Assembly (NCBI GenBank): GCA_004212795.1
Contig: SHBR01000009.1
Span: forward strand, 1 to 51,164
DNA from: Candidatus Thioglobus sp.
Lineage (GTDB): Bacteria > Pseudomonadota > Gammaproteobacteria > Arenicellales > UBA868
Direction of reading: 5' to 3'
Length of the DNA stretch: 51,164 nt
A program made the translations under genes and the position numbers. Below are positions 13,130 through 51,164 of the stretch, piece after piece. The notes under the pieces are model-generated. The model was not told the DNA's origin. It was given only the letters and a program-made list of their open reading frames with translations, and did not search any database. Position 1 is the first letter of the stretch. Each line of letters opens with the position of its first letter.

Positions 13130-13894
13130 CTACTCCGACCGACTGAATAACCGAATGGCAGCTTCGAGATCATCGAGTGTGTCCACACCAGAGGATGGCG
13201 CCTCGCGCGCATCAACAACCACTATCCTGTCACCGCGCCATAAAGCTCGCAACTGTTCCAGTCGCTCAGAGCCCTCAAGCGGTGTTACCGGCTCTGCAGT
13301 AAATTTATGAAGGTAACGAACGCGATAAGCGTAAATGCCGATATGTCGGCGCGCTAATCGCCAGGGCACACGGTCAGGGCCACCCTCTGCATCACTGCGC
13401 GCGAACGGAATTCCCGCTCTCGAAAAATAGAGCGCAAAGTTTTTTTTGTCTGTAACAACTTTGACCACGGCAGGATCAATAAATTGTCCGGGATTATCAA
13501 GGCCGGTTGCCGCGGTCGCGACACTCGCCGAAGGATTAGCAACCAATGCTTCTACAACCTGATCAATTAACGCGCCCGGCATATCAGGCTCGTCTCCTTG
13601 AACATTGACCACAATTTCATCAGCATCAAGCTCGAGTGAGGTCGCGGCTTCAGCGACACGATCCGTGCCACTCTGGTGCGAGACCGAAGTTAAACAGACC
13701 TCTCCTCCGAAACCATGGACGACTTGACTGATTCCATCATCATCAGTTGCAACGACAATTCGAGTCGCGGAAGACGTCTTCACCGTTTCGTACGTACGCT
13801 GAATTAATGGTTTACCTGCTACATCCCGCAAGGGTTTCCCCGGGAGTCGTAAGGACGCAAACCGCGCAGGAACGATCACAGTGAACTCAACCAT
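13130..13894 (-). CDS. kdsB: 3-deoxy-manno-octulosonate cytidylyltransferase
   Basis: KdsB activates KDO to CMP-KDO for lipopolysaccharide inner-core synthesis. The 254-residue protein begins FTVIVPARFASLRLPGKPLR, the nucleotide-binding signature, and has the metal-binding VNVQGDEPDM segment near residue 95 and RHIGIYAYR near 187. The ATG at 13894 overlaps the end of lpxK by 8 bases. In many gammaproteobacteria a small trm112 (ycaR) gene sits between lpxK and kdsB; here there is no room for it. Confidence 0.97.
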   Translation of the reverse strand: MVEFTVIVPARFASLRLPGKPLRDVAGKPLIQRTYETVKTSSATRIVVATDDDGISQVVHGFGGEVCLTSVSHQSGTDRVAEAATSLELDADEIVVNVQGDEPDMPGALIDQVVEALVANPSASVATAATGLDNPGQFIDPAVVKVVTDKKNFALYFSRAGIPFARSDAEGGPDRVPWRLARRHIGIYAYRVRYLHKFTAEPVTPLEGSERLEQLRALWRGDRIVVVDAREAPSSGVDTLDDLEAAIRLFSRSE

Positions 13895-14870
13895 TTGCGA
13901 TCCTTTGCCCTATGATGCGCTCAATATTTTCAATTAACTGATCGGGGAGTATGATTTCCTGGTCTACCGCCCACCAGCTTTTTTGCGCAAATTCACGACA
14001 CTTAACTTCGTCTTTAGTGGTCATCAATACGGTACGATCTGCAGGGAAATCTCCGGTGGTGAAGTGATGGTGATCACTAAAGGCTAGAGCTTCTAATTCG
14101 ATCGATTTTGCCGCCAGCCCATTGAAGAAACGGTCGGGATGATGGATGCCAGCGACAGCAACGACGGATACCCCTTCAAAGTCGCCTAGATCTTTCTCTT
14201 CACCATCGATCATATTGCGGGCTCGGGATAGATTCGATACGACAAGTATCTCCCCCGCCTCTGCTGACCCGTTTCGTCTTATTTGGATATCGAATGCCCT
14301 CAGGCGGGACCGCGGCTCTCGGAGTGGGCCGGCCGGTAATAGAAGTCCGTTTCCGTAACTGAACTCGCCGTCGACGACTGAGATTTCAACTGCTCGCCCC
14401 ATTGCGAAATGCTGTAGACCGTCATCGGATAAAATGAGATCGACTTCACTTTTTAAGAGGGTCTTGATCGCAAGCGCCCGATCAGGATAGGTCACGACGG
14501 GTAGACCGGTCTGCTGTGATATCAGAACAGGCTCATCTCCTACTTTTCGAGGGTCGCTATCGGGGGTTACTTCTGTGGGCTCGGTTAGTTTTGCGCCATA
14601 ACCTCGGGAGATAATTCCGGGATTCCAACCTCTGGATTGAAGCGCGCGCGCAAGCTCAATAATGATAGGTGTTTTTCCCGTGCCCCCCACTGTAATGTTT
14701 CCAACCACCACAATGGGTACCGGCGCATGATATACCGACAAGACGCCCAATTTATAAGCCCAACGACGGAGGGTGATGATGATGTAATAGATAAGGCTCA
14801 ACGGAATCAGCAGAGCCGTCACAACGCTAATACCCTGCCAAGACCGCTGTAACGCCGAGACAAGGTTCAT
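13887..14870 (-). CDS. lpxK: Tetraacyldisaccharide 4'-kinase
   Basis: LpxK phosphorylates the 4' position of the lipid A precursor at the inner membrane. The 327-residue protein has an N-terminal membrane-associated helix (about 15-35) and the Walker A region VGNITVGGTGKTPIII (about 55-70). DDGLQH near 146-151 and GISRGYG near 86 are also family motifs. The ATG overlaps the msbA stop by 4 bases (ATGA), and the 3' end overlaps kdsB by 8, so msbA-lpxK-kdsB are translationally coupled as part of one lipid A operon. Confidence 0.97.
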   Translation of the reverse strand: MNLVSALQRSWQGISVVTALLIPLSLIYYIIITLRRWAYKLGVLSVYHAPVPIVVVGNITVGGTGKTPIIIELARALQSRGWNPGIISRGYGAKLTEPTEVTPDSDPRKVGDEPVLISQQTGLPVVTYPDRALAIKTLLKSEVDLILSDDGLQHFAMGRAVEISVVDGEFSYGNGLLLPAGPLREPRSRLRAFDIQIRRNGSAEAGEILVVSNLSRARNMIDGEEKDLGDFEGVSVVAVAGIHHPDRFFNGLAAKSIELEALAFSDHHHFTTGDFPADRTVLMTTKDEVKCREFAQKSWWAVDQEIILPDQLIENIERIIGQRIANG

Positions 14871-16648
14871 GCGTTTTTCTCTCGATCAATGGCTTTTTCA
14901 GACCGCTCCGTATTCTGCTGGGTAGCCCACATCGCTGCATATTGTCCCGATAGGTTGAGGAGCGTCTGATGACTGCCGGATTCAATGATCTTCCCACCCG
15001 AAAAGACATGAATCATGTCCGCATGGGCAATAAACCCGAGCCGGTGCGCAATCAGCAAAACCGACTGGCGTTGCGCGCGGCCAACAATCGCCTCGCGAAC
15101 CCTCTGCTCAGAGAGCAAATCAAGGGCAGACGTCGCTTCATCCATAACCAGTATCGAGCCTTTCTTAAGAAGGGCTCGCGCGATTGCGACTCTTTGACGC
15201 TGCCCACCCGAAAGCCGATTGCCAAGCTCGCCCACCGATTTATCATCGCCTGAAACGAGCTTATCAACCTCTATTTCATGAAGAATTTCCTCAAGTTCCG
15301 CTGACCATTGGTCGTATTGGCCATAGGTTACATTCTGCTTGATGGATCCATCGAACAAAATCGGCTCTTGTGAAACCCACGAGATCTGAGCCCGAAGCGT
15401 TTGGAGCGAATAATCATCGATGGGTCGACCATCAACCAGAATTTGCCCGTCGAACCCTCTGTAAAAACCTAACAACAGGGAGGCGGCCGTTGACTTCCCG
15501 CTGCCGGAATCCCCAACCAATGCCACAGTTTGCCCCGGCCTCACTTCGAACGAAACACCCGCCAAGGCGCAATCATCCCCGGTTGAGTAACGAAAGACTA
15601 CATCCTGAAACTCAACATGCCCATTGATGACTGCGCTTTGTGACGAACCCTCTCTGACGCTCTGCTCGGGCTTTTCATCCAAAAGCTGGAAAACTGTCGT
15701 CGACGCTGCGATTCCAGCCTGCACGTATTCATTGACTCTCGCCAACCGCTTAATCGGACTCATTAGAAGAAGTATCGTGCCAATATAGGATACAAAAGTC
15801 CCCGGTGTTACAAAAGCCACAATTGTGTCGCTAAGCGCCAGGTAAATAATGCCTGACACCCCAGTGCCTGCAATGAGCAGCAATAAAGGCACGCTTATAG
15901 CTGCTACCGCTACCCTTCTCATGGATTGTCTGCGGTTCGACTGATTAGCTGTTTCAAATGCCCGCTCTTCCTCGGCAAATCCATTGTACGCCTTGATCAC
16001 TCGATGACCCTGCGCGGCCTCCTTGGTTGCGTGGGTAATACCCGCCATTGAGCTCTGTATTTTTTCGCTCGAGCGGCGAAATCGACGGGATGCTTTCCTG
16101 ACCACAACCGTCACGATTGGCGTAATCAAAAGAAAGAGCAGCGTTAAAGACCAACTCAGAATGAACATCCAAACCAGAAGTCCGATTGCCAATAATGAGT
16201 CTTTCACCGTTACCCTTACCGCTGTCGTGCAGGCATCCGAAACCTGTTCAAGATCGTAAATTAATCTTGAAATTAATGTCGCACTTGAATTTTGATCGAA
16301 ATACTGAGTCGGTAGTCGAATCGTTTTCGCAAATAATTCCTGTCGAAGATCAAAAATAACGCGTCGCCCAACCCAGGCGATGCAGTATTCGTCCGCAACT
16401 GCACCCAGCGCACGAGCAACAAAAACCCCCATCAATAAAAACGGAGTAAGCTGGATAATTGCGCGATTCCGCTCAACAAAGCCACCATCCATAATCGGTT
16501 TGAGCAAGGCAGCGAAAGCAACCTCGGCTCCCGCCACCATTGCCATCCCGATTAGACTGAAAACAAAAATCCTCTTATACGGCCAAACATAGCCAAGTAA
16601 CCGCTTATAAATGATCACTCCGGGAGATTGCGTCTTCGAAAATATCAT
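14867..16648 (-). CDS. msbA: Lipid A export ATP-binding/permease protein
   Basis: MsbA is a homodimeric ABC exporter that flips lipid A-core across the inner membrane. The 593-residue half-transporter has six transmembrane helices (residues about 20-320) and a C-terminal ATPase with Walker A GDSGSGKST (about 376), signature LSGGQRQRV (about 480) and Walker B ILVMDEATSALD (about 500). Length and the neighbours lpxK and kdsB support MsbA over other exporters. Its ATG overlaps the exbD stop by 4 bases. Confidence 0.95.
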   Translation of the reverse strand: MIFSKTQSPGVIIYKRLLGYVWPYKRIFVFSLIGMAMVAGAEVAFAALLKPIMDGGFVERNRAIIQLTPFLLMGVFVARALGAVADEYCIAWVGRRVIFDLRQELFAKTIRLPTQYFDQNSSATLISRLIYDLEQVSDACTTAVRVTVKDSLLAIGLLVWMFILSWSLTLLFLLITPIVTVVVRKASRRFRRSSEKIQSSMAGITHATKEAAQGHRVIKAYNGFAEEERAFETANQSNRRQSMRRVAVAAISVPLLLLIAGTGVSGIIYLALSDTIVAFVTPGTFVSYIGTILLLMSPIKRLARVNEYVQAGIAASTTVFQLLDEKPEQSVREGSSQSAVINGHVEFQDVVFRYSTGDDCALAGVSFEVRPGQTVALVGDSGSGKSTAASLLLGFYRGFDGQILVDGRPIDDYSLQTLRAQISWVSQEPILFDGSIKQNVTYGQYDQWSAELEEILHEIEVDKLVSGDDKSVGELGNRLSGGQRQRVAIARALLKKGSILVMDEATSALDLLSEQRVREAIVGRAQRQSVLLIAHRLGFIAHADMIHVFSGGKIIESGSHQTLLNLSGQYAAMWATQQNTERSEKAIDREKNA

Positions 16649-28893: not shown

Positions 28894-30057
28894 TTATCCT
28901 TGCGCTGCTGCGACAGCTTTTTGTGCCGCGTCGTTCATTGTGGTCGCAGTGACCATATCCAGGCCTGCCTTCTCTAATATTTCCCGACCTTTCTCCACGT
29001 TCGTACCCTCGAGACGAACAACGAGCGGAATGCTCAGTTTCACGACTCCCGCCGCCTGAACCAGTCCCTCAGCAACCACATCACATCGCATTATTCCGCC
29101 AAAAATATTGACCAGAATTGCCTTGAGGTCTGGATTACGAAGCATGATTTTAAAGGCCTCAGTTACTTGCTCAGCCGTTGCGCCACCACCAACATCTAGA
29201 AAGTTTGCGGGTTCGCCACCATATAGCTTAATGATGTCCATTGTCGCCATTGCCAGTCCCGCACCATTTACGAGACAGCCGATATCCCCGTCAAGTGAAA
29301 TATAGTTAAGTCCCACTGCAGATGCTTCAAGTTCCGCCGGATCTTCTTCGTCGGTATCCCGCATCGCAACAACGTCTGGATGTCGAAATAAAGCGTTATC
29401 GTCGAAATTAAACTTCGCATCCAACGCTATTATTTTGCCATTGGTCGTAACGACGAGAGGATTTATTTCGGCGAGAGAAGCATCGGTATCCCAGAATGCC
29501 ATGTACAGCGCTTTAACAAATAGAACGCCTTGTTCGGCATGGTCGCCTGTCAGGCCAACCCTCTCCAGGAGTGCCGAGACGTCCGCATCAACAATTCCCT
29601 GACCCGGGTCTACAAAAAGTTTAAAAATCTTATCCGGAGTCGCCGCGGCGACTTCTTCAATTTCAGTGCCACCTTCCGCACTTGCCATAATGACGACTTT
29701 TTGACTGGCTCGGTCAATGACTAGACCAAGATATAACTCGCGATCGATGCCAACCCCCTCCTCGACCAAAAGACGTTTAACTTGCTGACCGTTCGCGTTC
29801 GTCTGATGAGTGACCAAGCGCATACCCAGTAACTGGTTGGCAACTTCTTTAACCTCATCAATTGATCCTACAACTTTAACGCCACCGCCCTTTCCGCGCC
29901 CGCCGGCGTGGATCTGAGCTTTGACGACCCATCGATCGCCGCCTAAATCTTGTGCTGCCTTTAACGCATCGTCAACACTGAAGCAGGCAATACCCCGAGG
30001 CACTGAGACCCCTCGGTCTCGTAGAATCGTCTTAGCTTGATATTCGTGTACTTTCAT
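28894..30057 (-). CDS. sucC: Succinyl-CoA ligase beta subunit
   Basis: The 387-residue protein has an ATP-grasp domain (about 1-240) beginning [17 protein letters not shown], with the nucleotide-binding [16 protein letters not shown] near 46-61, EINPLV near 198-203, and a C-terminal flavodoxin-like domain with [10 protein letters not shown] near 321-330. It is co-transcribed with sucD. The pair is detached from odhA/sucB-type genes, which are not in this window, and lies downstream of a sulfurtransferase gene on the same strand. Confidence 0.97.
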
Positions 30058-30099
30058 TGATTAAGTCTCTTGCGCAGTCGCAAAAACAACTACTTTGAT

Positions 30100-30957
30100 T
30101 TATTTCTCGAATGAGGTTTCAATTGGCCGGGACGGATCCGCTATCCATTCGCTCCAGGATCCGGGATAAAGACGTGAGCCTTTGATCCCCGAATACTCCA
30201 TGGCAAATAGGTTATGACAAGCGGTTACCCCCGATCCACAACTATGGATAATATTCTGAGGATTTCGCCCTGCAGTCACCTGATCAAAAATTTCTTTAAG
30301 CTCTGCGCGCGACCGGAATTGTCCGTTTTCAAGGCTTAGCGCAAAGTGATAATTAATTGCACCAGGGATATGGCCCGCTTTAGCATCTAGTGGCTCAACC
30401 TCGCCACTGAATCGTGGCGGCTCGCGGGCGTCAACAACTGAAACCACCCCACCGCCTAGTGATTTAAGTATCTCGTCTGCGTCCGCTTTTAAGTCATTAA
30501 CTTCTCTCAGTGACGTTAGATGGCTGGAGGGTAATTCCGCAGTCGCCTCCCCAGCAATGGTCGATTTACCCGACTTTGACCAACTTGCAAAACCTCCATC
30601 TAACAGCCAAACATCGTCAACGCCAATCCACCCCAACATCCACCATAAACGTGCAGCGAAAACACCGGGTCCGTGGTCATAGACCACTATTTTTTGTCCG
30701 CTGGTCAAACCTAGCGCGGACGCCTGATTGATCCAATCACCGACATCAGGCAGAGGATGACGCCCGGTCGAAGAGGTTATCTGGCCTGACAAGTCCCGCT
30801 CTAGATCGACGTAGCATGCGCCCGGAATGTGGCTTCCCTCAAACGCGGCCCGGCCGGCATCCGGATCATTCAAAGCAAATCGACAGTCGCACACAATGAT
30901 CTCGTTCGACTGAATAAGGGTTTCAAGTTCGTCAGCGCTAATTAAATTGGCTTGCAT
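30100..30957 (-). CDS. sseA: 3-mercaptopyruvate sulfurtransferase
   Basis: This two-domain rhodanese transfers sulfur from 3-mercaptopyruvate to a thiol or cyanide. From ATG 30957 the protein has 285 residues (MQANLISADEL...); the conserved domain begins there, so I discard the extra 26 residues available to an upstream ATG at 31035. The C-terminal domain carries the active-site loop CGSGVTACHN, the mercaptopyruvate-type loop as opposed to CRKGVT of thiosulfate sulfurtransferases. No strong Shine-Dalgarno is seen. It lies between the GT2 gene and sucC on one strand, without an obvious functional link to either. Confidence 0.9.
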   Translation of the reverse strand: MQANLISADELETLIQSNEIIVCDCRFALNDPDAGRAAFEGSHIPGACYVDLERDLSGQITSSTGRHPLPDVGDWINQASALGLTSGQKIVVYDHGPGVFAARLWWMLGWIGVDDVWLLDGGFASWSKSGKSTIAGEATAELPSSHLTSLREVNDLKADADEILKSLGGGVVSVVDAREPPRFSGEVEPLDAKAGHIPGAINYHFALSLENGQFRSRAELKEIFDQVTAGRNPQNIIHSCGSGVTACHNLFAMEYSGIKGSRLYPGSWSEWIADPSRPIETSFEK

Positions 30958-31071
30958 ACAAGGGCTTCTATCTTTTAAAAATGACGATCTATTATCAACT
31001 TGACCGGCATCTGGATGCAATGGTCGATCCCGCATTTTGAGTACAAAAATAAAAGAACACCTGCAGAAAAT

Positions 31072-31965
31072 CTACTCAATATCATCTTCTTGAATCTGCC
31101 CACGGCGTAGTTGGGCCATTTGTTCGGCGACAATCGCGACCAGAAAAAATATCAGCCCGAAGACAAGCAATAACATCGTTCCAACGGAAACCCCCTCGTC
31201 CCGGATAATAAAAGGAAGCCCCCAAACGAGACCGAAAAGAATAAACCCTGCGCCAAGGGGTAAGAATATTCGGCCCGGATTAAACATGGCAACGATGTTG
31301 AGAATTTCAAAAACCGTTTCGAGCGCGGTACGGGTACTAATCGTACTTTTGCCCCCGGCTCGAGTTCGAACGTTGATATCGCGCTCGAGAACAAGATTAT
31401 TTCGGTGTACAAAAACCAATGTAATGATGTCACTGAAAGACATGCCGTCGGGGCAGAGCACGAGATATCCCTGCGCGAGACGCGTTCGGTATAACTTCAT
31501 GCCCGAGTTCAAATCCTCTATTGGTAAAGTGACCAGCGTCCCAGCAAGCAGCCGGATCATCTTCCGACCGATCGCTCGATAAAGCCCTGAATTACCGCTT
31601 TGACGCTTGCCCACCACCATATCCGCGCCTTTAGCTAATCCAAATTCCAGTAGTCGCCCGGCATCAACCGGCTGATGCTGTCCATCCGCATCCATAGTGA
31701 CCACGTATTCAGTCTGGCAGGCCTTGATTCCTGTTTTTAGTGCTCCACCGTAACCCCGATTAACTTTATGGCGCAACAAGGTCGATTTAGACTTCTGACA
31801 GAACGCCGCCAGCAATGTCGCTGATTCATCGGTTGATGCGTCGTCGACAAAAATAAGAACAAAATCGTTAGACTGAGCGTACGCTGCAATCTCGGGCAAA
31901 AACGCAGGCAATACGTCTGCCTCGTTAAAAACCGGAATAACAATAGTTAAAATAGGATTGGCCAT
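31072..31965 (-). CDS. GT2 polyprenyl-phosphate glycosyltransferase (DPM1/ArnC-like)
   Basis: This 297-residue protein has an N-terminal GT-A fold: LTIVIPVFNEADVLP at 6-20, FVDDASTD near 39-46, and the metal-binding MDADGQHQP with Asp92-Ala-Asp94, all typical of enzymes that move a sugar from a nucleotide donor to undecaprenyl or dolichyl phosphate. Two C-terminal transmembrane helices follow (about 234-255 and 262-285). The ATG is at 31965. It diverges from a GT-C-like membrane protein and a polysaccharide deacetylase, a set that recalls ArnC/ArnT/ArnD and FlmF2/FlmK/NaxD. The sugar is unknown. Confidence 0.85.
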   Translation of the reverse strand: MANPILTIVIPVFNEADVLPAFLPEIAAYAQSNDFVLIFVDDASTDESATLLAAFCQKSKSTLLRHKVNRGYGGALKTGIKACQTEYVVTMDADGQHQPVDAGRLLEFGLAKGADMVVGKRQSGNSGLYRAIGRKMIRLLAGTLVTLPIEDLNSGMKLYRTRLAQGYLVLCPDGMSFSDIITLVFVHRNNLVLERDINVRTRAGGKSTISTRTALETVFEILNIVAMFNPGRIFLPLGAGFILFGLVWGLPFIIRDEGVSVGTMLLLVFGLIFFLVAIVAEQMAQLRRGQIQEDDIE

Positions 31966-32067
31966 GAATCAGGCGTCGGAATAGATCGTCTCCAGAGAAG
32001 TCCTTATTTTGGCACACTCGAAGTGGCAAAAAATGGGTTCGATATTTAAAACGCCCACCCAATGGCT

Positions 32068-32096
32068 TTGCGTCAATTTAAAGCTGGTTTTATTAA
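32068..32096 (+). promoter_or_regulatory. Candidate promoter for the GT-C/deacetylase pair
   Basis: TTGCGT (32068-32073) and TATTAA (32091-32096) lie 17 bases apart in the 149-base divergent region and would give a leader of about 12 bases before the GTG at 32115. Matches are moderate. Confidence 0.3.
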
Positions 32097-32114
32097 TAAT
32101 TGGAATAAACAGTC

Positions 32115-33770
32115 GTGCATCGTCCTAAAACATCTCTAGTCAACAACCGATCATTCCTGCTCGGATGTGCGCTGATCAGTATTCTGAAATTGTGGTTATT
32201 AGGGCCCCAGGAAATCCTATCGAGGAGTTCACCGCACGATGACACGCTTTTTGTCGGACTTGCGCTGAACATCCTTCAAGGGGAATGGCTGGGTCCTTAT
32301 GACCAGTTTACTTTGATGAAAGGCTCAGGCTACCCCCTTTTTATTGCCGCAAGCAATCTGCTCGGCATTCCATTGATTCTCTCTCAAGAGCTTCTTTATC
32401 TTGGAGCCTGCTTTGTCTTTGTCTGGGGAATACATAAGCTAGGCTTAAGAAACATCTATCTCTGGATCGCCTTCGGTGCGCTAGCGTTCAACCCGTTCAC
32501 CTATAATTTTTTTCCCAATGTTTATCCATTTCGATTCGGCATTTATCCAGCGGTTTCGCTACTCCTTTTTGGATTAGCCCAAATTGTATTGATTTCTGTC
32601 GAGAACAGAGAGAAACATTGGAAAACCTTGGTTGTTTTTGGACTCGTCCTTGGGTTTTTTTGGAATATTCGAGGCGAGGCAATCTGGATCATGCCATCGC
32701 TCATCGTTTTAATCGGGTTTTATGGTTTCGCATCGACTCGAAACAGTTCATGTTCGAAAGTGGGTCCGGCCGTCCGTTCAACTTTGAACGCCCTGATCCT
32801 GGCCGGGATAGGATTTATGATGGTCAATTCAGGTATTGCCTACCAAAATCTGAAGCAATATGGTGTTTACACCACAAATGAGATGAAAAGTCCGGCCTTT
32901 AAATCTGCCTATGGCGGCCTTTTGAGAATCGAAACAGTGATTGGGGAGCGATTTATCCCAATCAATAGGGAGGCTCGACAAGCAGCTTATAACGTGAGTC
33001 CTGCATTTAAACGACTCGAACAATATTTCGAGCATGGCCGGGGAACCCGAACCTGGATGAAAGGCGGCTCAGACTACATTGCTGCTTTTTTCCCCTGGGC
33101 TTTTCGTGATGGAATCTATTCAATTGGATATTTTCGTGACGCACCCAGCACGCACGAATTTCTTGATCGAATCGGCAAAGAAATTGATGCCGCTTGCGAT
33201 GAAAAGAAAATTAAATGTCGCCCTCGGTACTCGGAATTAGCGCCTAAGTGGCGCTCGGAGTGGAATTCATTGGGCGTCGAAACTTTTATAGAAACCCTGA
33301 AGCGAATGGTTAAGTTCAAGGATTTCGTCGCAAATGGCCCAAGAGCTAGATCACTAAATGATGACAAACTGGTGACAAATTATAAATACGTCACGGGGTC
33401 TCCAATTCGGCCCCAACGCATCGACTTGTTAGAAAAAGTTCCTGAGTTTCATAAGAACCGTGTTCGGCTCAGTAATTTTATTTTTGGAAAAATGCTCTGG
33501 TTTTACCGCCATCTCCCCCAAATTCTGGTTATCCTGAGCGTTGGCATCATAGGGTACCGTGGTATTCAAGTCATCCGGGGCGATCGGCTCTCAACTTACG
33601 ATGTAATGAGTATCGCGCTGCTTGGCGGCCTAGTCGCTTATGCGTTTATCCTGACGATTTTGCAAGTCACTTCATATACGTCGATCGGTCGACAGTTAAA
33701 CACGACCTATCCGATCGTTCTTGCGCTAATCGTTTCTTCATTTGCAATGATATTCAGACGGGATCGATGA
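32115..33770 (+). CDS. GT-C-like polytopic membrane glycosyltransferase
   Basis: This 551-residue protein is predicted to have about ten transmembrane helices, in residues 14-30 and 80-230 and again near 450-550, enclosing a large soluble loop (about 235-450). An acidic pair (Asp42-Asp43 in SSPHDDTLF) sits in the first extracytoplasmic loop, where GT-C enzymes such as ArnT and the RgtA-D group keep their catalytic aspartates, followed by MKGSGYPLF. These enzymes use polyprenyl-phosphate sugars as donors. I do not recognise a specific subfamily. The start is GTG at 32115 without a clear Shine-Dalgarno, and the deacetylase gene begins directly after the stop. Confidence 0.65.
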   Translation: MHRPKTSLVNNRSFLLGCALISILKLWLLGPQEILSRSSPHDDTLFVGLALNILQGEWLGPYDQFTLMKGSGYPLFIAASNLLGIPLILSQELLYLGACFVFVWGIHKLGLRNIYLWIAFGALAFNPFTYNFFPNVYPFRFGIYPAVSLLLFGLAQIVLISVENREKHWKTLVVFGLVLGFFWNIRGEAIWIMPSLIVLIGFYGFASTRNSSCSKVGPAVRSTLNALILAGIGFMMVNSGIAYQNLKQYGVYTTNEMKSPAFKSAYGGLLRIETVIGERFIPINREARQAAYNVSPAFKRLEQYFEHGRGTRTWMKGGSDYIAAFFPWAFRDGIYSIGYFRDAPSTHEFLDRIGKEIDAACDEKKIKCRPRYSELAPKWRSEWNSLGVETFIETLKRMVKFKDFVANGPRARSLNDDKLVTNYKYVTGSPIRPQRIDLLEKVPEFHKNRVRLSNFIFGKMLWFYRHLPQILVILSVGIIGYRGIQVIRGDRLSTYDVMSIALLGGLVAYAFILTILQVTSYTSIGRQLNTTYPIVLALIVSSFAMIFRRDR

Positions 33771-34640
33771 ATGCCTGATTTGGGTCAGCGAACCGGGGGC
33801 GCAAGCTCAGATAGCAAATTAAATCTCCTGCTCGGAATCGATCTTGAGGATGTGCGAGATCATATCCCCGGCGGCTCGCGTTATCAGGATCGACTCGGGT
33901 TTAACGTAGAACGCATTCTTCGGTTTTTGGATGACCATCAAACCAAAGCGACCTTCTTTACGGTTGGCTTGGTTGCCCGGCGACTCCCCGGTCTAATCAA
34001 AACAATAGCGGACGAAGGACACGAACTTGCAAGTCACAGTGATCGGCATGTCCAGTTGAACAAGCTGACGCCAGAAGAGTTTTCATCTGACCTTAAAAGA
34101 AGTATTGACGCGCTGGAGCACGTAACATCAGACCGTGTTTCTGGGTTTCGGGCGCCCACTTTTTCTTTGATCCCAAGTTGTGAATGGGCTTACGACGCAC
34201 TTGTGGATAACAATCTGCTGTACAGTAGTTCGGTCCTTGCAGCGAAAAATCCGCTTTTTGGCTGGCCTGGCTTTGGAACCCGCCCTCGCCGAATGCGGCC
34301 GGGTCTAGTTGAAATCCCGGTCTCGCTACACCGCACACCTTTACCCCGGGTACCGCTCTTGGGGGGCGTTTATCTGCGGGTCCTGCCGTTTAGCCTCACT
34401 CGCATCTCGCTATTTCGACACAATCGCGAGCTTCCAGTCACGTCTTATATCCACCCTTACGATATTGATCAAGATCAAGAACGGTTCATGCATCCAGATC
34501 TGGATGGCAACCATCTAATGAATTGGCTGATGTACCTAAACCGGAATAAAACATTAGTGCGATTGTCAAAGATAATAGCGAGCTGCCGTTCCTGGCGGTA
34601 TATTGATTGGTTGGATCAATATTCATCTGAAATCAAATGA
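33771..34640 (+). CDS. Polysaccharide deacetylase (NodB domain)
   Basis: This 289-residue protein has the NodB homology motifs: motif 1 as LGIDLEDV (Asp24, Asp27), motif 2 as SHSDRH (His89 and His93, the metal pair), and motif 3 as GFRAPTFSL (Arg127, Pro129), then HPYDID near 226. It would remove an N-acyl or formyl group from a sugar using a metal ion. There is no signal peptide, so it acts in the cytoplasm or at the membrane, as ArnD and NaxD do on lipid-linked sugars. The ATG follows the previous stop TGA with no spacer. The N-terminal 16 residues are probably disordered. Confidence 0.85.
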   Translation: MPDLGQRTGGASSDSKLNLLLGIDLEDVRDHIPGGSRYQDRLGFNVERILRFLDDHQTKATFFTVGLVARRLPGLIKTIADEGHELASHSDRHVQLNKLTPEEFSSDLKRSIDALEHVTSDRVSGFRAPTFSLIPSCEWAYDALVDNNLLYSSSVLAAKNPLFGWPGFGTRPRRMRPGLVEIPVSLHRTPLPRVPLLGGVYLRVLPFSLTRISLFRHNRELPVTSYIHPYDIDQDQERFMHPDLDGNHLMNWLMYLNRNKTLVRLSKIIASCRSWRYIDWLDQYSSEIK

Positions 34641-34692
34641 TCAAATGTAGCTTCTCGGGGAATGGCTCAATCGGCGGATCGGACCCAAAAAA

Positions 34693-34780
34693 TGGCGGAG
34701 AGGGAGGGATTCGAACCCCCGGAACCTTTCAGTTCAACGGTTTTCAAGACCGCCGCATTCGACCACTCTGCCACCTCTCC
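34693..34780 (-). tRNA. tRNA-Ser (anticodon TGA)
   Basis: The minus strand gives an 88-base class II tRNA: acceptor GGAGAGG pairs with CCTCTCC, the discriminator is G, and the CCA is encoded. The anticodon loop CTTGAAA holds TGA (34746-34744), followed by a long serine-type variable arm and the T loop TTCGAAT. Six T (34692-34687) follow the CCA and could aid termination. The same tRNA lies beside the BAX-inhibitor gene yccA in E. coli (serT), so the linkage is old. Confidence 0.97.
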
Positions 34781-34946: not shown

Positions 34947-35621
34947 ATGATTTCTCGACAAACTTTAAGCTCCGATCGTCCCGCGGTTCAAGGGGTGGAA
35001 TTCAACAAGGTATTGAAAAACACCTATGCGTTACTGTCAGCAACGTTGCTGTTCAGCGCCGCGACAGCTGGCTTGTCAATGATGATGGGCTGGCCTCACC
35101 CTGGTTTTGTTATCACACTCGTGGGGTATTTTGGGCTTCTCTTCCTTGCGGGGCGGTTTAGAAATTCAGGCCTTGGAATCGTTTTTGTTTTCGGACTCAC
35201 AGGGTTCATGGGACTGACGCTAGGGCCTATTATCGGGTATTACATTTCGGCAGTACCGAACGGTGATCAGCTCGTCATGACCGCGCTCGGCGGGACAGGT
35301 TTGATTTTTCTCGGTCTCTCGGGTTACGCGTTGAAATCTCAGAAGGACTTCAGTTTCCTCGGCGGAATGCTGTTTGCAGGAATTTTGGTTGCCTTTCTCG
35401 CGGGCATCGGCGCTGCTATTTTTAGTATCCCGGCATTATCGCTAGCCGTTTCCGCGATGTTTATTGTATTAATGAGCGCGATGATCTTGTATCAGACTAG
35501 CGCGATCATTCACGGCGGTGAAACCAACTACATCATGGCAACCGTAACGCTCTATGTCTCGATCTACAACCTCTTCCTGAGTTTACTTCAAATTCTAGGG
35601 GTGTTTGGTGGAGATGATTAG
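34947..35621 (+). CDS. BAX inhibitor-1/YccA family membrane protein
   Basis: This 224-residue protein has seven hydrophobic helices and the UPF0005/BI-1 signature near its centre (GLGIVFVFGLTGFMGLTLGP, about 71-90) and GAAIFSIPAL near 157-166. Family members are membrane proteins linked to ion or proton leak; E. coli YccA modulates the FtsH protease. AGGAG lies 12 bases before the ATG, rather distant. The gene ends 27 bases before a strong terminator shared with serS. Confidence 0.9.
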   Translation: MISRQTLSSDRPAVQGVEFNKVLKNTYALLSATLLFSAATAGLSMMMGWPHPGFVITLVGYFGLLFLAGRFRNSGLGIVFVFGLTGFMGLTLGPIIGYYISAVPNGDQLVMTALGGTGLIFLGLSGYALKSQKDFSFLGGMLFAGILVAFLAGIGAAIFSIPALSLAVSAMFIVLMSAMILYQTSAIIHGGETNYIMATVTLYVSIYNLFLSLLQILGVFGGDD

Positions 35622-47355: not shown

Positions 47356-49272
47356 TTAAGCCGCAGCGTTCGACGCATCTAGGTCCGGCGATCCCGAGAT
47401 AGATTGATACTCGGGCACCAGCTCAAGAGAAATGTCGCGAACAGATTTATGATCACATGCCTCAATGCTCGAAGCTAACCGCTCCAGGAGCTTCCAAAAT
47501 TCATCTGGCGTATTAGGCCTCGCCTGAGCAAGCAGAATCTTTTCATAGTCTGTCGGGGCGAGACTCTCATCGGGATGAAATAATTCTTCTGATAATTTTT
47601 CGCCCGGACGCAATCCCGTATATCTGACTTCAACCTCATCATCCGGAACTTTACCCGCGAGGCGAATCATTTGGCGAGCAAGATAGTCAATCTTGACCGG
47701 CTCACCCATATTCAAGACGAATATTTCACCGCCGGCACCCATTACGCATGCCTGAAGAATTAGCTGACAAGCTTCCGACACTGTCATAAAGTAACGAGTC
47801 ATGGAAGGATCAGTGACCGTCACCGGTCCGCCTTGTCGAATCTGTCGCTCAAAAAGCGGAACCACACTCCCGGCAGAGCCCAGAACGTTACCAAATCGTA
47901 CCGTTATAAACTTGGTTTTTTCGGTGTCATTGCGAAGTTGACCCACAATCTCCGCGAGGCGTTTGCTCACCCCCATCATACTGCTCGGATTAACGGCCTT
48001 GTCTGTTGAAATTAAAACAAACTTCTCGACCTCCGCCGCAATCGAAGCGTTCGCCACTGAGAGAGTGCCTAGCGTGTTGTTACGCATTGTTTCCCTGATC
48101 TGGTTCTGCAGCATCGGCACATGCTTGTATGCAGCCGCATGAAAGACTATTTGTGGTCGATGGGTTAGGAAAATATCGTTAATTGCTTTCTCGTCGCAAA
48201 TATCTCCCAACAGTTGGCTAAATGAGATCTCCGGATAACGCTCCTTAAGTTCAAGTCCGAGCAAATAAAGGTTGAATTCATTTTGCTCAACAAGGATGAT
48301 CTCTTTCGGCTCAAGGCGTGCGACCTGGCGACAAAGTTCGCTACCGATCGACCCTGCACCGCCTGTTATAAGGACTTTTTGATCCTTAATCATCTCGAAC
48401 ATTTTTTCCCAATTCAGGTCAACAGGCGCTCGACCGAGGAGATCATCCAGTTCTACGGTTCGTAAGTCGGAGCTGGAAGCGCCTCCGTCGAGAATGTCTT
48501 GCACCTTTGGCAAGGTTCGAAATGGTACGCTTGCCTCTCCACAAAGACCCACAAGCCTGCGCATTTCTTCAGCCGACGCGCTAGGAATCGCAATCAGGAT
48601 GAGTTCGATGTGTAACAATTTGGACAATTGGGGAATCGTTGAGCATTCGCCCAGGATTCGAACTCCCTGAATCTCCCGACCTTTTTTTGATGAGTCGTCG
48701 TCGATAAAACCAGCGACGTGATAGTTAATATCGACACTTCTTTTGATATCTTTTAAAAGCATGTCGCCAGCCGCGCCTGCGCCGACAATCATCACCCTTT
48801 TTCCCTGCCCTTTCTGGAGTTGACGATCTCGAAAAAGACGATACGTGATCCGGCCACCGGTCAAAAAACCGACCAGGAATAGACCATGCAGTGGAAAAAC
48901 AGATCGGGGAACTGCAATCAAGTCGGTTAAAAGAAAAATGACCCCGGCCGACGCAATAGTTCCAACGCCTACCGCTTTAATGACAACCCATAGGTCGTAA
49001 GTCGAGGTGAATCTCCAGGCTCCCCGATGAATGCCAAAAAAAACAAAGAAAACCAGGTGTGCTCCAATGACAACCGGCAGCATCGCTACCGCCTGGTCTA
49101 AAAAAATATCAGGAATCGAATCAAGATTAAATCGAAACCAGTACGCGCCAAGCCAAGCAACCGTGATCCCGATAGCATCATGAATCAAGACCGGCCACCG
49201 GCTCATCAAGTACCTGAGCGATGACAGGATCCAATCGAACATCGATCTTTCCATTTTTTTAACTATTGCCAT
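47356..49272 (-). CDS. WbpM/FlaA1/CapD-type UDP-sugar 4,6-dehydratase
   Basis: The protein (about 638 aa from ATG 49272) has four or five N-terminal transmembrane helices, a first Rossmann domain (VMIVGAGAAGDMLLKDIK), and a C-terminal SDR dehydratase domain with ITGGAGSIGSEL, the FHAAAYKHVPML segment and STDKAVNPSSMMGVSKR. The catalytic Tyr is Met in the last motif, the SMK triad typical of the long WbpM group that makes UDP-4-keto-6-deoxy sugars for O-antigen. An alternative start is ATG 49242, with GGAAAG close upstream. Frames opening further upstream would overlap the glycosyl-1-phosphate transferase gene more deeply. Confidence 0.9.
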   Translation of the reverse strand: MAIVKKMERSMFDWILSSLRYLMSRWPVLIHDAIGITVAWLGAYWFRFNLDSIPDIFLDQAVAMLPVVIGAHLVFFVFFGIHRGAWRFTSTYDLWVVIKAVGVGTIASAGVIFLLTDLIAVPRSVFPLHGLFLVGFLTGGRITYRLFRDRQLQKGQGKRVMIVGAGAAGDMLLKDIKRSVDINYHVAGFIDDDSSKKGREIQGVRILGECSTIPQLSKLLHIELILIAIPSASAEEMRRLVGLCGEASVPFRTLPKVQDILDGGASSSDLRTVELDDLLGRAPVDLNWEKMFEMIKDQKVLITGGAGSIGSELCRQVARLEPKEIILVEQNEFNLYLLGLELKERYPEISFSQLLGDICDEKAINDIFLTHRPQIVFHAAAYKHVPMLQNQIRETMRNNTLGTLSVANASIAAEVEKFVLISTDKAVNPSSMMGVSKRLAEIVGQLRNDTEKTKFITVRFGNVLGSAGSVVPLFERQIRQGGPVTVTDPSMTRYFMTVSEACQLILQACVMGAGGEIFVLNMGEPVKIDYLARQMIRLAGKVPDDEVEVRYTGLRPGEKLSEELFHPDESLAPTDYEKILLAQARPNTPDEFWKLLERLASSIEACDHKSVRDISLELVPEYQSISGSPDLDASNAAA

Positions 49273-49273
49273 T

Positions 49274-50305
49274 TCAAACGCGGCGCTCGACAGAGCCCAC
49301 ATAAAGCGTGAATAGCCCGAGGATAGCAGTTGCGATGACCAAGAGCCAGATGCCATACGCTTCGAGCATCACGTTAAATGAAGCCAACACCACGAGAACC
49401 AATTGAAGTGCGCCTGTGATCAGGACGACTTGTTGATGGCTTTTACCTCTTACAATCAAGCGCTGGTACAAGTGATCCCGGTGGGCAAGAAAAATGTTAT
49501 TACCTGTCGATAGTCTACGGATTAGAGTAAACGACGCATCGAAAACAATGTAGCCATACAACATTACAAATGCCTCCGCGGGAAGCCCCAATCGAGTTAT
49601 CCCAATCAACATCGCTACACCGAGCCAGCCGCCGAGGGCCAAGCTACCCACATCACCCAAGAAAATACGAGCTGGCGACCAGTTAAAGCGAAGGAACGCT
49701 AACAACGTACCCGAAACAACAAGAGTGATCAGGCTTAGTGCAGGTGCATCAAGCGCGTAAAACCACAGTCCGAGTGTCGTCGTGATGATCACGCTATGCG
49801 CGCCCAGCAAACCGTCAGCACCGTCGATAAAATTGGTAAGATTTACAAGCCATATCATCAAAATCAGAGCCGGCCAAAAGACAAATACATCCGGAAATAC
49901 AAAGAACTCCCCAAACAATTGCCAACTGCGATCATCCAAGATCAGTCCGACTATCACTCCAACAAGGATGGTTTGCGCGAGTATTTTTTTTCTTACCGAT
50001 AGAATGCGGTGATCATCAATAAAGCCGACGATGCCAAGTCCGGCGATGCACGTCCCCACGCCTAGCATCCACCATTCGAAACTATAGAAAATTCCAATCA
50101 ATAAACTCCCAAGTATAGACACGATCAAACAAATCACTCCGCCCCCGCGCGGAGTAGGAACAATGTGCAGACTTCGAAGATTAGGAATGTCGCGGGGAAA
50201 GACCACAGATTTTCTATCGATTAAAAACTTAAAAACAATGAGTGTTAGTAGAAAAGCTATCAGTAGCGGAAAAACAAATCCAAGAAAGTTGTTAAAGTGA
50301 ATCAT
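49274..50305 (-). CDS. Undecaprenyl-phosphate sugar-1-phosphate transferase (WecA/WbpL-like)
   Basis: This 343-residue MraY-superfamily protein has about ten transmembrane helices and starts O-antigen repeat synthesis by moving a HexNAc-1-phosphate to undecaprenyl phosphate. Visible motifs are the N-terminal PTPRGGG, FIDDHRILSVRKK near 95-107, the central NLTNFIDGADGLLGAH near 156-171, LGDVGSLALGG near 217-227 and the C-terminal sugar-recognition HRDHLYQRL near 272-280. It lies between a sugar epimerase gene and the WbpM-like dehydratase, the same order as wbpV-wbpL-wbpM in Pseudomonas. Whether GlcNAc, QuiNAc or FucNAc is used cannot be read from sequence. Confidence 0.88.
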   Translation of the reverse strand: MIHFNNFLGFVFPLLIAFLLTLIVFKFLIDRKSVVFPRDIPNLRSLHIVPTPRGGGVICLIVSILGSLLIGIFYSFEWWMLGVGTCIAGLGIVGFIDDHRILSVRKKILAQTILVGVIVGLILDDRSWQLFGEFFVFPDVFVFWPALILMIWLVNLTNFIDGADGLLGAHSVIITTTLGLWFYALDAPALSLITLVVSGTLLAFLRFNWSPARIFLGDVGSLALGGWLGVAMLIGITRLGLPAEAFVMLYGYIVFDASFTLIRRLSTGNNIFLAHRDHLYQRLIVRGKSHQQVVLITGALQLVLVVLASFNVMLEAYGIWLLVIATAILGLFTLYVGSVERRV

Positions 50306-50309
50306 TATT

Positions 50310-51164
50310 TTATGGATGAAATTTTCGAAATCTGAAGGACAATCCCTTTAGCGCGTCGTTGTTATCAAACACAAAATCTTTTTCCAAGCGCTCTACAAAA
50401 TCCCTCGGGACTTCTTTTAATAAACGCAGCCAACAACCCACAAGAATCAAAATGCTTAACGTCCTCTTACGAACAACCCAGACTTTTCTGAAGTCTTTTG
50501 TTGTACGCATAGCACTCATTTGCATACTATTGAAGGTCACCGGACGGCCACCTTGAATAAATATCAGCTGGCGCTTCAAGTTCAATGCGTCTTCCGGTTT
50601 TTCCTCGCCTCGGAGAGACCTGATAATCCACTCCGAAATATCATCGCAATGAACCGGGTTTCGTAGACCCGTTGCAAACGAAAGGTCGGGGCAGTAAGGA
50701 AGAATCGAACCAATCTTTTTGAGATAGTTGATATTCCGATTCCGCCTTCCGCCATAGATGAGAGTTGGTCTCAGTATCGTCGTCGGGAACGCTTCAGGAA
50801 GTCGAAACTGAGCAACCCACTTCTCCCCAGTGGTTAGTTTTTGGGAAACGTCCTTCTGGTCTGAAGCGTTCCCGGATCGCTTTGTGATCACACTAGATGA
50901 GCTCAAGCAAAACCAGGGCGCTTGTCGAACGCCAGCAGAGCCCAGAATTTTGGAAAATCTTTCAAGCTCCCAAATTGGACACAGTGAAATCACTGCTGAA
51001 ACCTTAAGTCGGTTAACCGACGCGTGGTTTTCAAAAAAGTCAGGAGAGGCAGTAACCGTGTGACCGAATGATCCGAAAAGCTCAGGTCGGCGGGTCATGC
51101 AAACATTGTCAATTTTCAGTGCATTCAGTCTTGCACACAACGACTCGCCCACATCACTCCGCCC
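50310..51164 (-). CDS. NAD-dependent sugar epimerase/dehydratase, SDR family (5' end missing)
   Basis: The frame is open to the window edge and starts mid Rossmann loop (GRSDVGESLCARL), so the true start lies to the right of the window. About 285 residues are seen, including LRPTLIYGGRRNRNINYLKKI (here split across the typical SDR R-P-x-x-I-Y-G motif), LSSSSVI near residue 87 and NPVHCDDISEWI near 170. The Y-x-x-x-K pair of classical extended SDRs is not obvious: around residue 107 the chain reads TTGEKWVAQF, so the usual Tyr may be replaced. The C-terminus is basic and hydrophobic near 235-250. By position it resembles WbpV-like 4-epimerases or reductases of O-antigen loci. Confidence 0.7.
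   Translation of the reverse strand, partial: GRSDVGESLCARLNALKIDNVCMTRRPELFGSFGHTVTASPDFFENHASVNRLKVSAVISLCPIWELERFSKILGSAGVRQAPWFCLSSSSVITKRSGNASDQKDVSQKLTTGEKWVAQFRLPEAFPTTILRPTLIYGGRRNRNINYLKKIGSILPYCPDLSFATGLRNPVHCDDISEWIIRSLRGEEKPEDALNLKRQLIFIQGGRPVTFNSMQMSAMRTTKDFRKVWVVRKRTLSILILVGCWLRLLKEVPRDFVERLEKDFVFDNNDALKGLSFRFRKFHP

Follow-up and report, generated by a model that had tools for sequence, protein, structure and literature searches.

We describe here a three-gene locus of Candidatus Thioglobus sp., situated in a contig of 51,164 nucleotides (SHBR01000009.1, hereafter the window), which encodes a family 2 glycosyltransferase (GT2), a 551-residue membrane protein with a predicted GT-C fold and a NodB-type deacetylase. 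We propose that this trio constitutes a three-component extracytoplasmic glycosylation module with built-in deacylation, whatever its acceptor, and put the probability of this reading at roughly 0.62, a figure which overlaps with that of the lipid A alternative weighed below. Rechecking of the open reading frames (ORFs) returned the coordinates, lengths and strands given in the initial annotation of the window, including the divergent orientation of the GT2 gene and the zero spacing of the other two: the TGA stop codon of the membrane protein gene (33768-33770) is directly followed by the ATG of the deacetylase gene (33771-33773). In a single comparison, made with genome G003, the ratio of nonsynonymous to synonymous substitution rates (dN/dS) was 0.026 for GT2, 0.10 for the 551-residue protein and 0.12 for the deacetylase. 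Judged by these low values, all three look to be under purifying selection and not chance ORFs.

The 551-residue protein had been described as polytopic and GT-C-like, with an Asp-Asp pair and no recognisable subfamily. The last point held, as scans of Pfam (E <= 1), NCBIfam (0.1) and PDB sequences (10) gave no match; in these scans the protein thus shows no membership in the ArnT/PMT family by sequence. Hydropathy reveals many hydrophobic segments. Structure prediction and comparison with ArnT had been named as a check of the GT-C assignment, and a model was built on 10 sequences (pLDDT 72.6, pTM 0.74). When Foldseek's own PDB candidates were re-scored with VIA, the best 29 of the 50 rows listed comprised 26 GT-C glycosyltransferases and three chains of the GPI-transamidase U subunit, itself a GT-C-like protein, with Z from 20.1 to 9.3. 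Pmt4 (20.1), Pmt1-Pmt2 (19.9) and ArnT (17.1 over 302 residues, 4.1 A) are joined by AftA (15.1), ALG12 (15.1), AftD (14.9), EmbB (13.3) and PimE (12.1), the U chains scoring 13.8-14.6. After this group come the FtsWIQLB divisome complex (6.1), the WaaL ligase (5.7) and, from 4.9 down, unrelated folds. The predicted model thus shows the fold of the GT-C superfamily. A fold search of BFVD gave no match at E <= 0.001.

The conserved residues agree with this assignment. Helix 11-38 of the model precedes Asp42, so that a conserved acidic residue follows helix 1, as in the GT-C superfamily. Among 25 family members, D42 is invariant (25/25) and D43 is Asp in 22, which bears out the Asp-Asp pair; W58-L59-G60, R140, N245, Y249 and R331 are likewise invariant in 25/25. 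The loop holding Asp42 would face outside, and Asp42 itself is the presumed catalytic base.

ArnC, PpgS and AglJ, enzymes acting on polyprenyl phosphates, provide the three best NCBIfam models for the GT2 (80.5, 69.4 and 65.7 bits), all far below their equivalog cut-offs (529 bits for ArnC). The protein matches PF00535 (E 6.4e-27) and its best PDB relative is solved ArnC (E 1.1e-17). D94 of its DAD motif is invariant in 9/9 aligned GT2s, and two C-terminal helices would account for the hydropathy peaks at about 224-256 and 253-287, in keeping with the DPM1/ArnC-like character originally ascribed to it.

The deacetylase combines PF01522 (1.4e-19) with PF11959/DUF3473 (2.7e-19), no other Pfam family appearing at E <= 1. 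Its best NCBIfam model, and nearest named family, is the XrtA-system deacetylase TIGR03006, to which it aligns over positions 29-262 of 272 with 182.9 bits, below the cut-off of 276.2. The five trio deacetylases scanned all score 183-201 bits there, whereas the deacetylase of G033, whose neighbours look by eye like an XrtA-type cluster, reaches 443.4. On the ArnD equivalog model the protein scores only 12.4 bits against a cut-off of 382, and it does not belong to the YdjC superfamily, the type of NaxD. By sequence, the enzyme appears to be a sister of the XrtA/DUF3473 type, neither an ArnD nor a YdjC-type NaxD. No paper combining DUF3473 with a deacetylase term was found in the open-access literature.

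In its catalytic part the deacetylase is intact. Residues D24/E26/D27, H89/H93, R127, H228-P229 and D233, which we take to belong to the CE4 motifs, are invariant in 8/8 aligned sequences, so that a NodB domain of the CE4/NodB fold with its metal and base residues is present. No hydrophobic segment was detected by hydropathy, used here in place of a signal-peptide predictor, which is consistent with the absence of a signal peptide claimed earlier. A model from five sequences (pLDDT 64.8, pTM 0.71) finds NodB-fold enzymes as its fold matches, with 3rxz at the top (Z 22.1) and Salmonella ArnD seventh (Z 18.2 over 207 residues). In a review (PMC10967932) the structures closest to ArnD are given as 3RXZ, 3QBU, 1Z7A and 3S6O, and all four stand within the five best rows of our comparison. 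Since it shares ArnD's structural neighbours, the deacetylase model has the architecture of the ArnD-like group, although its sequence family differs.

Next, we examined whether the three genes keep company elsewhere. A deacetylase profile run over 369 genomes of the class matched 101 of them at E <= 1e-25, the source genome included. Two matches stand apart, G608 with 380.6 bits and G558 with 364.3, the next scoring 204.9. In both genomes, which represent two other families of the class, a GT2 and a GT-C protein of the trio subfamilies lie near the deacetylase gene; identity to the window proteins is 47-51% for GT2, 50-51% for NodB and 31-37% for GT-C. G558 carries GT2, NodB and GT-C on the same strand with gaps of 51 and 5 bp, on the 3' side of an adjoining tRNA-Leu. 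In G608 a methyltransferase and an LPG-synthase-type membrane protein separate NodB from GT-C, and no tRNA is present in the stretch. Seven other genomes of G558's order (three of them at most 75% complete) yielded no deacetylase at E <= 1e-60. A second putative GT-C protein lies directly beside the G558 trio (L205:10843-12657; PMT_2 E 8.1e-5, below the cut-off).

Reappearance of the three subfamilies together, in other gene orders, in G558 and G608 largely refutes the idea that three unrelated genes meet by chance at a tRNA hot spot, a very improbable explanation even though the variable tRNA-Ser site beside the trio holds cobW, GDSL-hydrolase, enoyl-CoA hydratase or aldehyde dehydrogenase genes in relatives. 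In the GT-C tree, trio members fall inside one larger group which also holds members devoid of the deacetylase, G558 and G608 joining G073 and G081 with support 81/93. In G073 and G081 no deacetylase of the trio kind was found at E <= 1e-25. The trio may have arisen only once.

Within the genus, sampled by 20 genomes including the source, all three genes are present, whole or as contig-end pieces, in seven (G000, G002, G003, G006, G013, G017 and G018). Six others (G001, G007, G009, G012, G014 and G015) carry the rhodanese gene, tRNA-Ser and yccA on one contig without the trio, and tblastn detected no trace of it at that site. The contrast between genomes with the whole trio and those with an intact site devoid of it indicates that the trio has mostly been gained or lost as a block. 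Partial cases also occur: G008 retains the GT2 but just the C-terminal portion of the deacetylase, adjoined by enoyl-CoA hydratase and aldehyde dehydrogenase genes, and G016 has the GT2 at one contig end and cobW beside tRNA-Ser at another, so that the rest of the trio may have been lost in an assembly gap. Apart from G004, described below, the remaining four genomes are uninformative on the trio. With the two further families, the expected co-occurrence was therefore found, though in only part of the genus. Of the two outcomes named in advance as contrary to the initial reading, a lack of co-occurrence in relatives and a model without a GT-C fold, neither was observed.

The site itself shows varied contents. 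In G004 two deacetylase remnant pieces in different frames lie beside tRNA-Ser (L125:262-560), probably a decayed copy of the module. Elsewhere the site holds cobW and WD40 genes (G003), cobW (G016), enoyl-CoA hydratase and aldehyde dehydrogenase genes (G008) or a GDSL hydrolase ORF (G015). We considered a mobile element and rejected it: no tRNA stretch of at least 11 bases recurs in window positions 30001-34690 or in L205 6701-14000, the interval bounded by the flanking genes of the window contains no ORF of at least 100 residues besides those of the trio (no search for an integrase was made outside it), and the G+C content (45.7-49.9%) is ordinary against 49.2% for the window.

The GT-C family as a whole is sparse. 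It occurs in 17 of 109 genomes of the order; an eighteenth match, in G014 (E 8.3e-4), was discarded as frame-broken with four stops. In a phylum sample of 398 genomes a relative was found, besides the source genome, only in G391, after a third match, in G310, had been dropped for the same reason (E 5.6e-4, two stops). Eleven plasmid records, from Azospirillum, Citrobacter, Enterococcus and Subdoligranulum, contain the named relatives, of which the annotated ones are called 'hypothetical protein', and the range thus comprises Gammaproteobacteria, Azospirillum, Enterococcus and Clostridia. These distant relatives share 19-30% identity with the 551-residue protein.

Their neighbourhoods are informative with respect to the donor. 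In Azospirillum Az39 a GT2 gene diverges from the GT-C relative, an arrangement like that of the window. On a plasmid of Citrobacter braakii GtrA, GT-C and GT2 follow one another; rfb O-antigen genes and an ABC exporter lie about 3 kb away, beyond a transposase. G391 has its relative in an apparent glycan cluster with a multi-helix GT2, and in G499 the GT2 overlaps the GT-C start by 4 bp. As relatives lacking the deacetylase (Azospirillum, Citrobacter, G391, G499) keep a DPM1-like GT2, the GT-C protein appears tied to a polyprenyl-phosphate-sugar donor. GT2 neighbours in five lineages, together with G558 and G608, point to a polyprenyl-phosphate sugar as the probable substrate of the 551-residue protein.

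Two side observations concern the same family. Two overlapping ORFs (L022:9965-11799) make up the relative in Azospirillum argentinense MTCC4035, unlike in Az39. Three phage-labelled records hold GT-C relatives, L142 and L143 (labelled Listeria phage and Bacteriophage sp.) among them. Viral carriage was rejected, since both such records whose DNA was inspected look bacterial, with neighbours that are presumably metal-transporter-like in one and Sir2-like and S6-like in the other. A scan of viral contigs with a seven-row GT-C alignment found no relative.

On top of the observed co-occurrence, intact residues and signs of selection, and of the predicted fold, we infer substrates, direction and acceptor as follows. 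Judging from its family, the GT2 would move an N-acylated amino sugar from uridine diphosphate (UDP) to undecaprenyl phosphate at the cytosolic face; an N-acetylhexosamine is the likeliest such sugar. The NodB/DUF3473 enzyme, with its catalytic residues intact and no hydrophobic leader, would strip the acyl group from the lipid-linked sugar in the cytosol and leave a free, positively charged amine. A flippase, for which no gene was found, would turn the lipid-sugar outward, and the GT-C protein, with Asp42 as presumed base, would pass the amino sugar to a periplasmic-side acceptor. Action of a DUF3473 deacetylase on an undecaprenyl-phosphate sugar is a step predicted here.

Several observations weigh against this reading. 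The alignment behind the GT-C model comprises 10 sequences, Foldseek alone is not significant (best ArnT E 0.066, TM-score 0.15), and mostly helical models without a clear match can reach a best VIA Z of about 14; we accept the fold because the leading Z values exceed that level and form one family. Among 23 GT-C stretches tested with profiles, some of them shorter than 5 kb and one (G006) with its deacetylase on another contig, a DPM1-like GT2 was found in nine and a deacetylase in three (the window, G003 and G013). Neither was found near GT-C in the stretches of Enterococcus, G069, G073, G074, G086 and G095, among others. The GT2 is thus a recurrent but not a constant partner of the GT-C protein, and the deacetylase is an addition in the three trio lineages. 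No dedicated flippase was seen among the trio's neighbours: GtrA (PF04138) was not found in the contigs of the source genome, which is incomplete (78% complete, 2.04 Mb in 82 contigs), and occurs in one of the 20 genus genomes. Finally, the deacetylase, being nearest to the XrtA exopolysaccharide model, could act on a lipid-pyrophosphate-linked oligosaccharide instead.

The trio had initially been taken for a possible Arn/Flm-like module. Its logic of loading and deacylating a sugar inside and transferring it outside fits all three proteins, but a sequence kinship to Arn or Flm finds no support. With its ArnC/DPM1-type GT2, NodB-fold deacylase and GT-C transferase the trio resembles Arn, also in the structural matches to ArnD and ArnT, yet its proteins fall below the ArnC and ArnD cut-offs and its GT-C protein lacks any Pfam or NCBIfam match. 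In the Francisella system, FlmF2 and FlmK supply the steps of the same three-step logic other than that of NaxD. NaxD is a YdjC-superfamily enzyme by which N-acetylhexosamine is deacetylated on undecaprenyl phosphate, according to a published account (PMC11279074), whereas the trio enzyme is of the PF01522 and DUF3473 kind. Bordetella offers a further three-gene logic, likened here by description: LgmA, LgmB and LgmC are needed for glucosamine on lipid A (PMC4993483). Direct membership in Arn, Flm or Gtr was rejected on the sequence criteria applied. The trio would thus work like Arn, Flm and Lgm, yet by sequence it is a member of neither Arn nor Flm. No paper on a GT2/GT-C/NodB trio was found in the open-access literature.

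Other systems are comparable in part. GT136, the family of Citrobacter youngae ORF12, is presented in one report as a recent GT-C family for pentofuranoses (PMC11127046). Mycobacterial Rv3779 acts with PpgS in adding galactosamine to arabinogalactan, and the flipping and deacetylating factors were called unidentified in a 2022 paper (PMC9671496). The likeness consists in the below-cut-off match of the trio GT2 to the PpgS model and, by description, in the transfer of galactosamine to a polysaccharide by Rv3779. For the deacetylase the XrtA system stands nearest, as shown above.

As to the acceptor, a surface polysaccharide or the core or O-antigen of lipopolysaccharide (LPS) seems more likely than lipid A. 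In its most specific form, which we put forward tentatively, our proposal is a new class of surface-charge module, in which a GT-C family without a name and a deacetylase, drawn from the XrtA/DUF3473 line of exopolysaccharide systems and not from ArnD or NaxD, would decorate an already complete surface polysaccharide, not lipid A, with a hexosamine bearing a free amine. It would represent a further, independently assembled cationic lipid-linked-sugar route, perhaps spread via gammaproteobacterial tRNA-side sites.

That the phosphates of lipid A receive the amino sugar, in the way of Arn, Flm and Lgm, would be a special case of the same mechanism; it is rather unlikely and has no direct support, although the shared enzyme logic, the structural match to ArnT and the presence of LpxC in the source genome and LpxK in the window all speak for it. 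Organisms that lack lipid A also have relatives of the GT-C protein (Enterococcus, Subdoligranulum and a clone labelled Listeria), other relatives lie near O-antigen or glycan genes, and Pmt outscores ArnT in the fold comparison. That the family is present in Gram-positive bacteria and close to O-antigen genes speaks, for the family as a whole, rather against lipid A as the acceptor. The counter-examples are distant, so the acceptor in the window may differ.

Doubtful, too, is a Gtr-like decoration of O-antigen, in which GT2 and GT-C would decorate a polysaccharide while NodB trims the polymer or a lipid-pyrophosphate precursor, a later or other substrate. Polyprenyl-phosphate donor and GT-C transferase are common to the trio and the three-component Gtr systems (GtrA, GtrB and a GT-C enzyme), and the Citrobacter row near rfb genes, the nearness of NodB to the XrtA-system model and WecA-type and sugar-dehydratase genes at 47-50 kb of the window are in its favour. 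On the other hand, the trio includes a deacetylase and the source contigs yielded no GtrA, the deacetylase lacks a hydrophobic leader and accompanies GT2 and GT-C in each of the three trio lineages, and no polymer-assembly gene directly adjoins the trio in the window or in G558. Protein glycosylation, with the GT-C protein as a Pmt-like O-glycosyltransferase fed by GT2, is improbable: its closest folds are indeed Pmt4 and Pmt1-Pmt2, but fold nearness says nothing on the acceptor, a GT-C relative lies near polysaccharide genes, and we know of no deacetylase in Pmt systems.

Features of the trio locus, its borders and the variable tRNA-Ser site (window coordinates unless a stretch is named)
Feature	Position	Strand	Remarks
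GT2 gene	31072-31965	-	ArnC/PpgS/AglJ-like putative polyprenyl-phosphate sugar synthase; two predicted C-terminal membrane helices
Intergenic region separating the divergent GT2 and GT-C genes	31966-32114	no strand	149 bp
551-residue membrane protein gene	32115-33770	+	GT-C fold by model; Asp42 after helix 1
NodB/CE4 deacetylase gene	33771-34640	+	PF01522 with DUF3473 tail; no hydrophobic leader
tRNA-Ser (TGA)	34693-34780	-	trio located 3' of it; contents of the site vary within the genus
Sulfurtransferase (rhodanese) gene	30100-31035	-	outside the module; PF00581 1.3e-28; one border of the site
YccA/Bax1-I gene	34947-35621	+	outside the module; PF01027 1.3e-44; other border of the site
Variable tRNA-Ser site stretches	L084:3874-5897; L120:10850-11206; L098:5316-7531; L123:11641-12564; window 34693-34780

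The wider window contains further envelope genes. At 13130-16648 lies an LPS gene run consisting of an ABC exporter (apparently MsbA-like), LpxK and a CTP_transf_3 protein (apparently KdsB-like), from which the source organism is probably able to make Kdo-lipid A. At 47356-50305 a UDP-GlcNAc-4,6-dehydratase-like protein (PF02719) overlaps a WecA/MraY-type phosphoglycosyl transferase (PF00953); the pair probably marks one end of a cluster of surface-glycan genes. The ORF that follows (50310-51152) matches no Pfam family. Promoter-like sites number seven against 5.6 expected and terminator-like sites ten against 4.4 expected, none of them between the trio and the tRNA.

Placement of the 551-residue protein in the GT-C superfamily, with a lipid-phosphate-sugar synthase as partner, gives a family of 'hypothetical proteins', new to both Pfam and NCBIfam, which have no model for it, a testable function. 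The trio offers a model for comparison with the deacetylase step of the PpgS-type galactosamine pathway, called unidentified in the paper cited above (PMC9671496). The trio is also a candidate for a compact cassette that decorates surfaces with cationic sugars, which would bear on envelope charge, phage receptors and peptide resistance.

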